Shown here: positions 15,917-30,215 of the stretch, in pieces
How the letters are laid out: the number at the start of each line of letters is the position of its first letter
Position numbering within the stretch: position 1 is the stretch's first letter
Assembly: GCA_001802375.1 (NCBI GenBank)
Contig: MGXK01000015.1
Span: 1-36,958, forward strand
Direction of reading: 5' to 3'
Length of the DNA stretch: 36,958 nt
Origin: Gammaproteobacteria bacterium RBG_16_51_14
Lineage (GTDB): Bacteria > Pseudomonadota > Gammaproteobacteria > Eutrophobiales > Eutrophobiaceae
The notes under the pieces: model-generated
What the model was told of the DNA's origin: nothing
The model's database searches: none
What the model saw: only the letters and a program-made list of their open reading frames with translations
Position numbers and translations under genes: made by a program

Positions 15917-16894
15917 ATGCGTACTGTTTTTCAGATTCTGAGGATCCTGTCAGATGGAAAATTTCATTCGGGTGGAAGCCTGGGGAATAAACTGGGTGTT
16001 ACCCGTACTGCAATCTGGAAGGTTATCAGGAAACTGACGGACTATGGCCTGGATATTCATGCTGTACGGGGGAAAGGATATCGCTTGTCAGTACCGGTCG
16101 AATTGCTCGATCAAGACCAGATAGAAAATAAAATCAGCAAACATGCCAGGAGATTGATCAAGCAGTTTGAAATTTTCGGTGTTATCAATTCAACTAATCA
16201 ATATCTGCTGGAAAAATCGGATACCGGCAACATCCATGGACATGTTGTGCTTGCCGAATATCAGACAAAGGGCAGGGGTAGACGGGGAAATAAATGGATA
16301 TCACCGGTCGGATCAGGCATCAATCTCTCTTTCGGTTGGCATTTTGATAATTTTCCTGAATCTGTCGGGGTGTTATCACTTGTTATAGGGGTTGCCATTA
16401 TTCGTGCCTTGCACAGGGCCGGTATCAATGGGGTTGGTTTGAAGTGGCCGAACGATATTCTCTGGGAACATTGTAAATTGGGAGGCATTCTTCTCGAGAT
16501 GCGAGGTGAAACATCCGGCCCTTTTGATGTCGTCATCGGGATTGGTATCAATATCCATTTCCCAGGAATGGAGATTGCCGGGATCGATCAACCATGGACT
16601 CACATTGCCGGGATTACCCGGACGCCACCTTCAAGAAATGGACTCGCTGCTGACTTGATTACTGAATCATTGCTTATACTGGAACAATTTTCATATGAAG
16701 GGGTTGCAGAAATACTGGACGAATGGAGACGGTATGATTGCATCCACGGACGACAGGCTATGCTGATTCTGCCGGGGAGAAACATTCGGGGGAAAGTCAT
16801 CGGGATAGATGATCGGGGCGCACTCCTGATGTCTGTCCGGGGAGAGAGGAAGCGGTTTAATGCGGGTGAAATAAGATTACGGGTGACATCTTGA
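15917..16894 (+). CDS. birA: BirA, biotin protein ligase and biotin operon repressor
   Basis: The 325-residue protein is the bifunctional type. An N-terminal winged helix (about 1-60) has LSDGKFHSGGSLGNKLGVTR and TAIWKVIRKLTDYGLDI. The ligase domain has the biotin/ATP loop KGRGRRGNKWISPVGSGINL, then KWPNDILW and KLGGILLEMRG. The C-terminal SH3-like part ends with RGKVIGIDDRGALLM. It activates biotin with ATP and attaches it to the acetyl-CoA carboxylase carrier protein; with the DNA-binding domain it also represses biotin synthesis genes. No bio genes are in the window. Its TGA overlaps the coaX start (TTGA), so the two are translationally coupled. Confidence 0.95.
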   Translation: MRTVFQILRILSDGKFHSGGSLGNKLGVTRTAIWKVIRKLTDYGLDIHAVRGKGYRLSVPVELLDQDQIENKISKHARRLIKQFEIFGVINSTNQYLLEKSDTGNIHGHVVLAEYQTKGRGRRGNKWISPVGSGINLSFGWHFDNFPESVGVLSLVIGVAIIRALHRAGINGVGLKWPNDILWEHCKLGGILLEMRGETSGPFDVVIGIGINIHFPGMEIAGIDQPWTHIAGITRTPPSRNGLAADLITESLLILEQFSYEGVAEILDEWRRYDCIHGRQAMLILPGRNIRGKVIGIDDRGALLMSVRGERKRFNAGEIRLRVTS

Positions 16895-17637
16895 ATCTGT
16901 TAGTTGATATAGGAAATACTTGCATCAAGTGGGCTGTAGAAAATAATACAGTCCTGGGGCCGCAAAAGGCATTCCTGTACCGACAAACAAAGTTGCCTGA
17001 GCAATTGAATGAACATTGGAAATCAATACCGTTACCTGGACAGGTTCTCGTCTCCAATGTTGCAGGTAAAGATATCCGGGAAGTCCTGACTGCATGGGTA
17101 AAAGACAGGTGGAATGTTGAAACCAGAATTGCAGAAGTCGAACAGTTTGCCTGTGGTGTTACCAATGCCTATCATGACGTGAGGCAACTGGGTGTGGATC
17201 GCTGGCTTGCCATTATTGCTGCCTGGAACCGGTTTAAGTCACCTGTTTGTGTTGTCGATTGCGGCACTGCCATTACAATTGATGGCGTCGCTGTTGATGG
17301 CATCCACCTTGGCGGCCTGATTATTCCTGGTTTGTTAATGATGCAGGAAGCCCTGGTCAGGAATACCAGAGGTATTGATGTGAAAACCGGCACTGATATC
17401 ACCCCGGAATTCGGTAAGGATACACAAAAGGGGGTAGCCAATGGGTGTTGCCTGGCAGCAGTCGCGCTTATTGATCGGGGCGTGCAGAACATGCATGCTG
17501 AAACAGGCAGTGGATTGAACTGTGTAATTACTGGTGGTGCTGCACGCTTTGTTTTACCCTATCTCGCTGCCGATTTTATTTCCGACCCTCAGTTGGTATT
17601 ACGTGGTCTGTCCAGCTTGTTCAGGGATAAACCATGA
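16891..17637 (+). CDS. coaX: Type III pantothenate kinase
   Basis: The 248-residue protein begins NLLVDIGNTCIKWAVENN, the phosphate-binding loop of CoaX, and has GVDRWLAIIAAWNRF, then CVVDCGTAITIDGVAVDG, then GGLIIPGLLMMQEAL. CoaX phosphorylates pantothenate in the first step of coenzyme A synthesis; type III enzymes need a monovalent cation and are not inhibited by CoA. The start is TTG at 16891, chosen because the frame matches the family from the first residue and overlaps the birA stop. The next gene overlaps its stop by 4 bases (ATGA). Confidence 0.94.
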   Translation: MNLLVDIGNTCIKWAVENNTVLGPQKAFLYRQTKLPEQLNEHWKSIPLPGQVLVSNVAGKDIREVLTAWVKDRWNVETRIAEVEQFACGVTNAYHDVRQLGVDRWLAIIAAWNRFKSPVCVVDCGTAITIDGVAVDGIHLGGLIIPGLLMMQEALVRNTRGIDVKTGTDITPEFGKDTQKGVANGCCLAAVALIDRGVQNMHAETGSGLNCVITGGAARFVLPYLAADFISDPQLVLRGLSSLFRDKP

Positions 17638-18488
17638 AATGGCTGTTTATCCTTCTGTTATTGTGCAATGTCTTCTATTTTGGATGGGAAATTGATCGAC
17701 AGACAAAAATTACGATACGCAATTCGTCAGCAGCCATAGCAATCCCGGAAGGGACAGAAAAATTAAAGTTATTATCAGAACTTGGGGAACCACCTGCGCT
17801 TATAACCACCCAGGCAGAACAGCCAATCCCCGCGGACGAAAAACAGGAAGAGAAGGTGGATACTCGGGAAGAGGATGTCCCGGGGATGAAAGTCGGGGAT
17901 AGTACGGTGGGTGATAACGAACCACCAGACATCGGACTGGAGTTACTCCAGTCACTCCCCGGGGTCAATATCTCCGAACTGACCAAGGATTTAGATCAGG
18001 CTAAACCCCTCTGTTTTACCTATGGTCCGATGCCTGATGCCGCTGAGTCGGACCGGCTGGAAGACTGGTTTCGAAGCCGCCATGTATGGGTTAACCACCG
18101 GCTTACGGATGACAAGGGCAGACAACTCTTCTGGATCTATCTGACGGCACGTGATTCCAGGGAAAATGCCATGGCGGCGATCAGGGATTTAAAAAACAGG
18201 GGTGTCACAGATTTGCGCCTGATCAGTACGGGTGAACTTGTCAATGCCATTTCCCTGGGTCTTTTTTCGACACAGGCAGCGGTGAACAGACGATTGCGTC
18301 AGATCACGGATAAGGGCTATAAACCGGTTGTCATCCCCCATTACGGGGAAAAGAAAATCCACTGGCTGGATATCAGGCTTGACAAGAATGCACCGGTTCT
18401 GAATGAGATTATTGATAGTTTCCCTGCACGCTATAATTCAGTCCCGGTAGCGTGTAATGAAATTGCCATGTCAACCGTTAATCCCTAA
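17634..18488 (+). CDS. Membrane-anchored SPOR-like domain protein
   Basis: The 284-residue protein has an N-terminal membrane segment (KWLFILLLLCNVFYFGW), then a long acidic low-complexity linker (about residues 40-115). The C-terminal part resembles a SPOR domain: LFWIYLTARDSRENAMAAIR, then DLKNRGVTDLRLI and LGLFSTQAAVNRRLRQI. SPOR domains bind denuded peptidoglycan at division sites. A protein of this shape is common after birA-coaX in gammaproteobacteria. The start overlaps the coaX stop by 4 bases, so it is co-translated. The SPOR assignment is by pattern and is moderately certain. Confidence 0.75.
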   Translation: MKWLFILLLLCNVFYFGWEIDRQTKITIRNSSAAIAIPEGTEKLKLLSELGEPPALITTQAEQPIPADEKQEEKVDTREEDVPGMKVGDSTVGDNEPPDIGLELLQSLPGVNISELTKDLDQAKPLCFTYGPMPDAAESDRLEDWFRSRHVWVNHRLTDDKGRQLFWIYLTARDSRENAMAAIRDLKNRGVTDLRLISTGELVNAISLGLFSTQAAVNRRLRQITDKGYKPVVIPHYGEKKIHWLDIRLDKNAPVLNEIIDSFPARYNSVPVACNEIAMSTVNP

Positions 18489-18551: not shown

Positions 18552-18625
18552 GCCCCGATAGTTAAACGGTATAACCGATGATTTGTAATCATCTATTGGG
18601 GGTTCGATTCCCTCTCGGGGCTCCA
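18552..18625 (+). tRNA. tRNA-Thr (anticodon TGT) with glycine-type body
   Basis: The folded cloverleaf is complete. The acceptor GCCCCGA pairs with TCGGGGC (18615-18621), followed by T73 and an encoded CCA. The D-stem GTTA/TAAC carries the loop AACGGTA with conserved A14, G18, G19 and A21. The anticodon stem GATGA/TCATC holds the loop TTTGTAA, so the anticodon is TGT (18584-18586), reading ACA (Thr). The T-loop is TTCGATT. The body length is 71 nt plus CCA. The D-loop, T-arm and U73 look like bacterial tRNA-Gly, not like ordinary tRNA-Thr, which usually has A73. The position after birA-coaX parallels E. coli, where thrU (also TGT) follows birA-coaA. Confidence 0.93.
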
Positions 18626-18681: not shown

Positions 18682-19803
18682 ATGAAACAGTTCAAGCGAA
18701 TCACATCAGCGGTTATTCTTTTATGCACCCTTCAGCAGTCCATGTCTGCTGAGTCTCCCAAGGATCAAATCCAGATATTGATCAATGAAGGCCATTTACA
18801 GCAGGCACTGAAACTGGCAGACGAAACACTTGCCGGAGATGAATCTGATATCAGGATCCTGTTTCTTAAAGGCCTCATACTGACCAAGCTGAATGATCTG
18901 GATAATGCCCAGAAACTGTTTGAGAAATTAACGAATGAACACCCGGAATTACCTGAGCCATTCAATAATCTTGCTGTCATTTATGCATTCAAGGGTGAAT
19001 ATGACAAGGCGGAACTGGCATTGCTGACTGCAATCAACACCCATCCTAGTTATGCGACGGCACACGAAAACCTGGGTGATATCTATGCCAAGATGGCAAC
19101 CCAGGCATACAATCAGGCCCTGGCACTGGATCAGGAAAATAAATTCGTCAAGGAAAAATTATTACTGGTGAATGAATTATTTTCGGTACCTGAGTCACCG
19201 GTCGCGATAGCCAATAAGGAAGAAAAGCAGGAGGAAATGATTGCCAAGACAAAACCAGTGATAAAGGAAAGTCCGCAGGTAACACCAGAGGAAATGCCGG
19301 AGGTAGCGCCTGAGGAAAAGCCGGAGATAGCACCAGAGGAAAAGCTACCGGTTGCGCCAGAAGCAAAACCGGAGGAACCACCGGAGGTAATGAAAGAAAC
19401 AGAAGTCGTACCACCTGCCCAGGAAACGGCTTCTCCTAAACAGGAAAGTCAACAGGATGATACATTCAAGACAGAAGTGATCATGGCGTTGCAAGCCTGG
19501 GCCAATGCCTGGTCTTCCAGGGATATGGATGCCTATCTGGCCTGTTATGCCAGTGAATTTGTGCCACCCAACAAGCTTTCCAGAAAGACGTGGGAAGCCC
19601 GGCGCAAAGAGCGGCTGGAGGCACCACAGTTTATAAAAGTAGAGATCTCTGCTATAAACGTTGTGTTTAATGATAATGGGCAGGCACGGATAAAATTTCT
19701 GCAACAATACCAGTCTGATACCTACAGTGACAGGGTAACAAAGGAGATCATGATGAAAAAGAAAGACGGAAAGTGGTTAATCACCAGGGAACTGGACAGG
19801 TAA
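18682..19803 (+). CDS. Exported TPR protein with Pro/Glu linker and NTF2/Cds6-like C-terminal domain
   Basis: The 373-residue protein has a signal peptide (ending MSAES) and about three TPR repeats at roughly residues 28-155: LQQALKLADETLAGDESDIR, FNNLAVIYAFKGEYDKAELA and HENLGDIYAKMATQAYNQAL. A Pro/Glu-rich linker with repeated xAPEEKPE units covers about 185-250. The C-terminal 110 residues (LQAWANAWSSRDMDAYLACY, then YSDRVTKEIMMKKKDGKWLI) look like the NTF2-like domain (SnoaL/DUF4440, Cds6-type) found at the end of some L,D-transpeptidases. The next gene carries a similar domain. It probably organises envelope proteins; the exact role is unknown. Confidence 0.82.
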   Translation: MKQFKRITSAVILLCTLQQSMSAESPKDQIQILINEGHLQQALKLADETLAGDESDIRILFLKGLILTKLNDLDNAQKLFEKLTNEHPELPEPFNNLAVIYAFKGEYDKAELALLTAINTHPSYATAHENLGDIYAKMATQAYNQALALDQENKFVKEKLLLVNELFSVPESPVAIANKEEKQEEMIAKTKPVIKESPQVTPEEMPEVAPEEKPEIAPEEKLPVAPEAKPEEPPEVMKETEVVPPAQETASPKQESQQDDTFKTEVIMALQAWANAWSSRDMDAYLACYASEFVPPNKLSRKTWEARRKERLEAPQFIKVEISAINVVFNDNGQARIKFLQQYQSDTYSDRVTKEIMMKKKDGKWLITRELDR

Positions 19804-22132: not shown

Positions 22133-23446
22133 TCAAAACAGGTAATCCAGAAAGATCCCGAGGAATACGATTGCGCCGAACCAGTTATTGTTCTGAAATG
22201 CATGCATGCACCCTTCCCGCTGCCTGTCCCTGATCAGGTACTGCTGGTACATCGCCAGTACGCAGGCACCGGCAATACCCGAAAAATAATATCCCCCCAG
22301 TTCCGATTGTCTGCCTATCAGGATCAGGACAACCAGCAGCAGCACCTGTATCCCTCCAATAATAACGCGGTCGGCATCATCGAACAAAATCGCAGTAGAT
22401 TTTATGCCGAGCCTCAAATCATCATCGCGGTCCACCATTGCATAAATAGTGTCATAGACCACAGACCAGAGTACATTGGCGATATAGATCAGCCAGGCAA
22501 TTTGCGGCACCGTACCGGTCTGTGCAGCGAATACCATGGGTACACCCCAGCCAAAGGCGAGTCCAAGGAAAAACTGGGGAAGATAGGTAACACGTTTCAT
22601 GTAGGGATAGATTGCCGCAAGCAGGATACCTACTACGGACAGTTGCATTGTCAACCGGTTCAGGGTCATGACCAGCAGAAAGGCAATTGTAATCAGGAAG
22701 GCTGCCACACCCAGTGCCTCCGCTGGTTTGACAAATCCGGCAACAATCTGCCTGCTCCGGGTTCGTTGTACCGCACCATCGAATTTCCTGTCCGCGAGAT
22801 CGTTTATAACACAGCCCCCGGATCGCATCAGGATCACCCCCAGTACAAAGACGGTAAACACATACGGATCGGGAATTCCCCCGGCAGCGATCCACATGGC
22901 CCACAGGGTGGGCCAGAGTAATAAAAAGATCCCGATCGGTTTATCCAGACGTATCAGCAGGGCATAATGGTATAATCTGTCCCTGATCAACAGCAGGTTT
23001 GACCTGATTTTCGCCAGTGTCCATTGCCAATACTGACTGGTTTTATCGAGAACAAATATCCCGTTTTTGACCAGTATTCCCCGAATAATCCGGGTGTAGT
23101 GCACTGTCCTCAGGGTACAGTGGGATAACCTGTCCCTGAGCAATGGCAGGTTTGACCTGATTTTCGCCAGCGTCCATTGCCGGTACTGACCGGCTTTATC
23201 CAGTACAAATAACCCGTTATTGACCAGTATCCCCCGGATGATCCGGGCGTGATGCACTGTCCTCAGGGCACAGTGGGATAACCTGTCCCTGAATAATGGC
23301 AGGTTTGACCTGATTTTCGCCAGTGTCCATTGCCAATACTGACTGGTTTTATCAAGTATAAATATCCCGTATTTAACCAGCATCTGCCTGGCAAACTGGG
23401 CGCAGTGTACTGTCCTTTGCCCTGCTATTTGCCAGTATTCATGCAT
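22133..23446 (-). CDS. ubiA: UbiA, 4-hydroxybenzoate polyprenyltransferase, with tandemly repeated N-terminal extension
   Basis: From about residue 160 the protein is a normal UbiA: RLDKPIGIFLLLWPTLWAMW, the first prenyl-diphosphate motif NDLADRKFD (N215, D216, D219) and the second, VDRDDDLRLGIKSTA (D341-D345), with about nine membrane helices. It attaches the polyprenyl tail to 4-hydroxybenzoate in ubiquinone synthesis. The family is about 290 residues; this one has 437. The extra N-terminus holds three 51-residue repeats (residues 24-74, 75-125, and 126 onward, the last merging into the core) and a partial fourth copy. No ATG occurs between M22 and M184, which lies inside the first membrane helix, so translation through the repeats is likely. 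It overlaps ubiC by 22 bases. Confidence 0.92.
   Translation of the reverse strand: MHEYWQIAGQRTVHCAQFARQMLVKYGIFILDKTSQYWQWTLAKIRSNLPLFRDRLSHCALRTVHHARIIRGILVNNGLFVLDKAGQYRQWTLAKIRSNLPLLRDRLSHCTLRTVHYTRIIRGILVKNGIFVLDKTSQYWQWTLAKIRSNLLLIRDRLYHYALLIRLDKPIGIFLLLWPTLWAMWIAAGGIPDPYVFTVFVLGVILMRSGGCVINDLADRKFDGAVQRTRSRQIVAGFVKPAEALGVAAFLITIAFLLVMTLNRLTMQLSVVGILLAAIYPYMKRVTYLPQFFLGLAFGWGVPMVFAAQTGTVPQIAWLIYIANVLWSVVYDTIYAMVDRDDDLRLGIKSTAILFDDADRVIIGGIQVLLLVVLILIGRQSELGGYYFSGIAGACVLAMYQQYLIRDRQREGCMHAFQNNNWFGAIVFLGIFLDYLF
22950..23420. repeat. 153-bp tandem repeat within the 5' part of ubiA
   Basis: Three copies with a period of exactly 153 bases (51 codons) are visible. The landmark TCGCCAG occurs at 23011, 23164 and 23317, and a related partial unit follows to about 23420. 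Copies begin at about 23377, 23224 and 23071 on the minus strand. Copies one and three share DKTSQYWQW, whereas copy two has DKAGQYRQW. The third copy continues into the UbiA core (RDRLYHYALLIRLDKP), so the repeat appears to have been copied from the native N-terminus. All copies stay in frame with no stop. Confidence 0.92.
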
Positions 23447-30021: not shown

Positions 30022-30215
30022 ATCAGGATGTTGTTATTCAATGTTGTATCTGAATATTAAGTAGGTGCATGAGAGCACGGTTTTTCCTATAGTCATCAAA
30101 ATTAGGTATATATGCAGGCATTAGCGTCCCTCCGCGCAATCCCTTGAGATAGACACCAAGCCAGCCGGGCAAGGGTTCCACGGTTTTCGCCCCGTCGGGC
30201 CAGGCTTGGCAATAA
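30022..30215. other. Intergenic region between gmk and higA
   Basis: This 194-base gap holds no gene. An imperfect inverted repeat with 7-base outer arms (CCAAGCC at 30156-30162, GGCTTGG at 30203-30209) surrounds a GC-rich centre just after the higA stop. It could act as the end signal of the toxin-antitoxin operon or be the edge of the inserted segment. Confidence 0.35.

Follow-up and report, generated by a model that had tools for sequence, protein, structure and literature searches.

The single tRNA gene in the window (by which we mean the whole stretch of 36,958 nucleotides that was analysed) is, by its position, an ordinary thrU and the sole gene of its kind found in its genome, and it has the body of a tRNA type known from tailed phages. 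We consider it rather probable that a phage-type tRNA displaced thrU in situ and still serves as tRNA-Thr. An initial annotation had described the gene as a threonine anticodon on a glycine-like body that may have switched identity; the evidence below indicates that a switch from glycine is most likely not what happened here. The gene, its parts and its neighbours are as follows.

15917 to 16894, plus strand: birA, conserved upstream neighbour (synteny)
16891 to 17637, plus strand: coaX, conserved upstream neighbour and marker of the thrU locus (synteny)
17634 to 18488, plus strand: SPOR-domain gene between coaX and the tRNA (Pfam SPOR, 1.7e-5; synteny)
18552 to 18625, plus strand: tRNA-Thr(UGU) gene with phage-type body and encoded CCA (ARAGORN, Rfam RF00005, genome-wide tRNA search)
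18561 to 18575, plus strand: signature D-arm of the type, GTTA AACGGTA TAAC, with U11-A24, A13-U22 and A15 (sequence)
18584 to 18586, plus strand: anticodon TGT, required for reading ACA (ARAGORN, codon count)
18594 to 18597, plus strand: variable loop TATT, four bases with U48, a viral-type feature (sequence, comparison)
18622, plus strand: discriminator U73, A73 in some relatives (sequence, relatives)
18682 to 19803, plus strand: gene with TPR and Cds6_C domains, downstream neighbour conserved in the family (Pfam; synteny)

ARAGORN finds one tRNA in the window, a complete cloverleaf with the anticodon TGT at 18552-18625, which matches the Rfam tRNA model RF00005 at 63.9 bits (E 8.5e-12). The descriptive part of the initial annotation was thus accurate, both in the cloverleaf and in the AACGGTA D-loop, the T-arm (GGGGGTTCGATTCCCTC), U73 and the length of 71 nt, this being the mature part, to which the encoded CCA is added. 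The acceptor stem is GCCCCGA/TCGGGGC and the stem of the T-arm GGGGG/CCCTC. Five features are atypical for a bacterial tRNA-Thr(UGU): the U11-A24 and A13-U22 pairs, A15, U48 and the four-base variable loop. Among 19 distinct bacterial homologues the fold is nevertheless kept, with 98.5% of pair cells standard and five helix pairs changed on both sides, against about one by shuffling.

The identity elements recognised by E. coli ThrRS are G1-C72, C2-G71, G35 and U36. All four are present in the window tRNA, as had been claimed, and the two acceptor pairs are invariant in 19/19 bacterial homologues; the glycine anticodon elements C35 and C36 are absent, again in line with the earlier claim. Because the threonine elements are present, the acceptor pairs invariant and the helices covarying, the gene is expected, from its sequence, to encode a functional tRNA-Thr that would be charged with threonine. 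Base 73 is of little weight for threonine identity (PMC9976931).

The window's genome is a metagenome-assembled genome (MAG) of 2.67 Mb in 154 contigs, 96% complete. A genome-wide search identified 29 tRNAs, including Thr(UGU) once, beside Thr(GGU) and Thr(CGU); a second tRNA-Thr(TGT), for which the initial annotation had proposed to look, was not found among these 29 tRNAs of the 154-contig assembly. As the tRNA set is incomplete (Phe, Lys, His, Asn and Ile were not found), absence of a second copy is likely rather than proven. In a more complete relative (G005, 37 distinct tRNAs), Thr(UGU) is likewise only of the odd type and present in one copy. ACA accounts for 158 of the 511 threonine codons in 27 genes of the window, and the window tRNA is therefore needed.

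By position the gene is thrU, lying behind birA, coaX and the SPOR-domain gene. The proposal that the place after birA-coaX is that of thrU was borne out by synteny, with the SPOR-domain gene intervening. A Tyr-Gly(UCC)-Thr(GGU) cluster without thrU follows a tsaC-like gene on a different contig. Neither an integrase nor a prophage was seen next to the tRNA gene in the window. Two other features of the window may be mentioned. An int-alpA RNA (Rfam RF02996, 57.9 bits, gathering threshold 35.8) lies at 30141-30210 on the minus strand, between gmk-like and yicC-like genes, and has beside it no long ORF able to be an integrase. A UbiA-like ORF at 22133-23446 on the minus strand carries an N-terminal extension in which a unit of some 50 residues recurs about three times almost unchanged.

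To what tRNA does the unusual body belong? The idea that it derives from a tRNA-Gly gene that changed its anticodon and became a tRNA-Thr draws on features that the window tRNA does share with tRNA-Gly(UCC), namely a short D-loop, a four-base variable loop, U73 and a TTCGATT T-loop. The two differ in the acceptor stem, the anticodon arm, the variable loop sequence and the 13-22 pair. Using conventional tRNA numbering, we compared the tRNAs of the genome with the window tRNA as reference at 64 non-anticodon positions. Gly(UCC) and Gly(CCC) each match at 39/64, which is the background, as Thr(CGU), Arg(UCG) and Trp also match at 39/64 and two Leu tRNAs at 40/64, so that similarity to tRNA-Gly does not rise above that to other tRNAs and the 'much better' match to glycine previously asserted does not hold. 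The sole Gly-like part is the D-arm (19/22 against Gly(UCC)). Nor is U73 a diagnostic mark of glycine, since the Thr(GGU) of the same genome has it too, ending ...GGGCU-CCA.

The same body is found in viruses, and the type is mainly a viral one. A search of about 85,000 bacterial and archaeal species with a collection pattern made of the odd D-arm and the anticodon loop gave 60 matching stretches, and a slightly wider version of the pattern identified the type in at least 120 viral contigs, named phages with the type being Erwinia KEY, Klebsiella AmPh_EK80, Pantoea AAS21, Eos and Vibrio VS1. The consensus of the type has no match in E. coli genomes, and a search of plasmids gave only two partial matches. 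The D-arm is invariant across the aligned bacterial and viral homologues, position 16 excepted. Among the matches listed, the closest viral copies are identical to the window tRNA at 60/71 positions, which is not a recent match. When the D-arm and anticodon are left out, the window tRNA matches viral members at a median of 36/51 positions (best 42/51 among the matches listed), Gly at 26/51 and canonical Thr(UGU) at 28/51; without the D-arm, the Gly tRNAs of the family reach at most 28/51 against the 42/51 of that best viral Thr. Three of the bacterial MAG contigs with the type (L049, L060 and L103, assigned for example to Gastranaerophilales and Rhodospirillales) may be misbinned phage contigs, and in L049 the gene sits within a dense tRNA array.

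Classification by position weights, with the phage-type class trained on viral members alone, gives the window tRNA +26.3 bits for the viral type, with the next best class at -16.5, Gly(UCC) at -18.4 and canonical Thr(UGU) at -41.4, although the viral class was gathered by its D-arm pattern, which makes the D-arm's share of the score circular; apart from a few loop positions, the remainder is free of this. The initial annotation was thus right that the body is not that of a normal bacterial tRNA-Thr. Since the collection pattern fixes the D-arm, the likeness of viral and bacterial bodies might reflect convergence on a short D-arm. We regard this as very unlikely, as the columns outside the D-arm and anticodon score +19.3 bits for the viral type against -19.5 for Gly(UCC) and -19.7 for canonical Thr(UGU), a gap of about 39 bits. 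By region, the viral Thr(UGU) type scores best everywhere except in the near-neutral T-arm, which argues against an identity switch from tRNA-Gly, and the acceptor stem alone scores -15.3 bits for Gly. Each of the 31 distinct bacterial homologues likewise came out as the viral type, and most control tRNAs were assigned correctly.

Another candidate source for the body is a tRNA-Arg(CCU) that lost A20, the D-arm presumably resembling that of E. coli argW. The probability of this origin is close to negligible: no argW-like Arg(CCU) was found in 58 relatives (at up to three mismatches), the Arg(CCU) of the family matches at 39/64 positions and its D-arm is canonical, and the classifier score is -21.9 bits.

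A tree was built from 663 tRNAs without their anticodons. One of its bipartitions (SH 0.89) unites 133 sequences, namely 118 of the 121 that belong to the type and 15 further Thr tRNAs. Once past the bacterial group, the closest sequences are those of viral members. The gammaproteobacterial clade is nested among viral sequences with SH 0.59, support within the type being weak because the molecule offers only 71 positions. The identity-switch proposal had itself named grouping with tRNA-Thr, or being the regular thrU of its clade, as results that would speak against it, and this is largely what was found: the molecule groups with tRNA-Thr of a special type, and in its lineage it is the normal and only thrU. 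Forcing a clade with Gly lowers lnL by 39.6 units, and an AU test on 68 columns does not reject this placement (p 0.20). With its own and viral Gly tRNAs at background, and with the classifier scores given above, an origin from glycine appears extremely unlikely. Some viral tRNA-Thr(GGU) genes (L255, L256, L269 and others) group with the same odd body, so that the type may embrace a family of Thr tRNAs broader than UGU alone.

Amongst known tRNAs, the window gene thus stands nearest to the tRNA-Thr(UGU) of the tailed phages Erwinia KEY, Klebsiella AmPh_EK80 and Pantoea AAS21, with which it shares the anticodon, a D-arm of the type TAGTTAAATGGTATAAC, the four-base variable loop, G1-C72 and C2-G71. 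Unlike the phage genes, it is chromosomal and single, lies at a conserved locus, is the only ACA decoder found, and has the T-arm GGGGG/CCCTC of the bacterial side, where U73 is mostly present. The tRNA-Thr(UGU) of phage T5 has a different body. With canonical bacterial thrU, the window gene shares the anticodon, decoding role, locus behind coaX and threonine identity elements; the canonical body, by contrast, has C11-G24, C13-G22, mostly G15, C48, a five-base variable loop and a canonical acceptor and core.

The distribution of the type in Gammaproteobacteria is patchy. In the window's family, 15 genomes carry the odd type, 18 the canonical Thr(UGU) and four were not assigned; both occur together in none. 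In a sample of the class, 15/369 genomes from about nine families carry it. One cultured carrier is Methylohalomonas lacus. In nearly all gammaproteobacterial cases where the flank is present, coaX or coaX-SPOR precedes the odd gene, no coaX match being found near L056, L083 and L100. Other families have canonical thrU at the coaX(-SPOR) site, and one (f134) has both states there, in different genera. A coaX tree was set aside for placing the switches, as coaX evolves too fast and recG is better suited. Twelve of the canonical members of the window's family have no tRNA at their birA-coaX(-SPOR) locus, and since 7/8 canonical genomes with the tRNA-less locus form one clade of the recG tree (97/98), the results suggest that the canonical gene later returned elsewhere in one branch. 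Canonical members L364-L375 have the Thr(UGU) gene at a different locus. In MAGs of Thiomargarita and Thiotrichaceae (L056, L057, L063, L067 and L070), which are large sulfur bacteria, the type apparently lacks the encoded CCA.

Both states are also found in Polynucleobacter. Canonical Thr(UGU) is present in 97 of 121 sampled genomes. In a subset, the same locus behind sspA-sspB is occupied by the phage-type gene, the canonical gene being absent in 11/11 such genomes checked. The Polynucleobacter copies are nested inside 35 viral sequences (SH 0.98), and the direction from phage to bacterium is well supported in this genus. In other species, a gap of about 18 nt separates a canonical copy from a tyrosine recombinase gene (Phage_integrase plus Arm-DNA-bind_3) and some genomes have two canonical copies 7 to 10 kb apart; the Polynucleobacter tRNA is therefore an integration target, and an in-situ swap could plausibly come about by integration at the tRNA. 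L562, L563 and L564 have the canonical gene beside a P4-type integrase and, 7-10 kb off, a further copy that is sometimes inverted.

Did the type instead arise in bacteria? On this reading, the thrU of an early gammaproteobacterial lineage was altered where it stood, then inherited and partly lost, with phages acquiring the type from such hosts. The bacterial sequences do form a tight group with synteny conserved over many families, on a weak backbone, and in the recG tree, which gives no number of gains, the type is dispersed over families. Against this, the diversity of the type is far greater in viruses than in bacteria, the Polynucleobacter copies sit inside viral ones in a genus that is mostly canonical, and coordinated changes at 11-24, 13-22, 15-48 and the variable loop would have been needed, of which no intermediate was seen. 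We consider a bacterial origin unlikely, at perhaps one chance in a few, and a transfer from phage to bacterium likely in the window's lineage also.

The displacement that we favour would have run as follows. A gene of the type common in tailed phages took the place of the native thrU at the latter's own locus, perhaps through recombination, perhaps through integration at the tRNA gene and a later loss of the native copy, and would then have been retained as sole ACA decoder. The product would most likely be a working thrU, with ACA as its codon and with G1-C72, C2-G71, G35 and U36 as the elements by which ThrRS would charge it. More tentatively, and with somewhat less than even confidence, we suggest at least two in-situ displacements of this essential tRNA gene by integration or recombination, one in Gammaproteobacteria of the window type and one in Polynucleobacter, a canonical return at a new locus in one branch of the window's family, and tRNA-cutting defences as possibly part of the pressure. 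E. coli tRNA-Thr(UGU) is a prime target of the PARIS nuclease AriB, which cuts within U36AAUC|A41 (PMC12409363). Escape from AriB is not supported as the motive, because the window tRNA keeps U36 A37 A38 U39 C40 A41 and hence an unchanged cleavage motif.

The proposed displacement resembles tRNA gene recruitment or remolding by alloacceptor anticodon shift (PMC3923123, PMC4783518), in that another body takes over the function of a resident tRNA, but differs in that the incoming gene, though from another lineage, would already have been a tRNA-Thr, so that no change of amino-acid identity would be needed. We found no report of phage-type displacement of thrU in the open literature, at the level of titles and abstracts. 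Core tRNAs present as a sole copy are usually regarded as inherited, a view with which a phage-type body on the only ACA decoder across several families contrasts. Classification of tRNAs by their bodies can take such genes for other isotypes. In Polynucleobacter, where both states occur at one locus, the swap is open to direct study.
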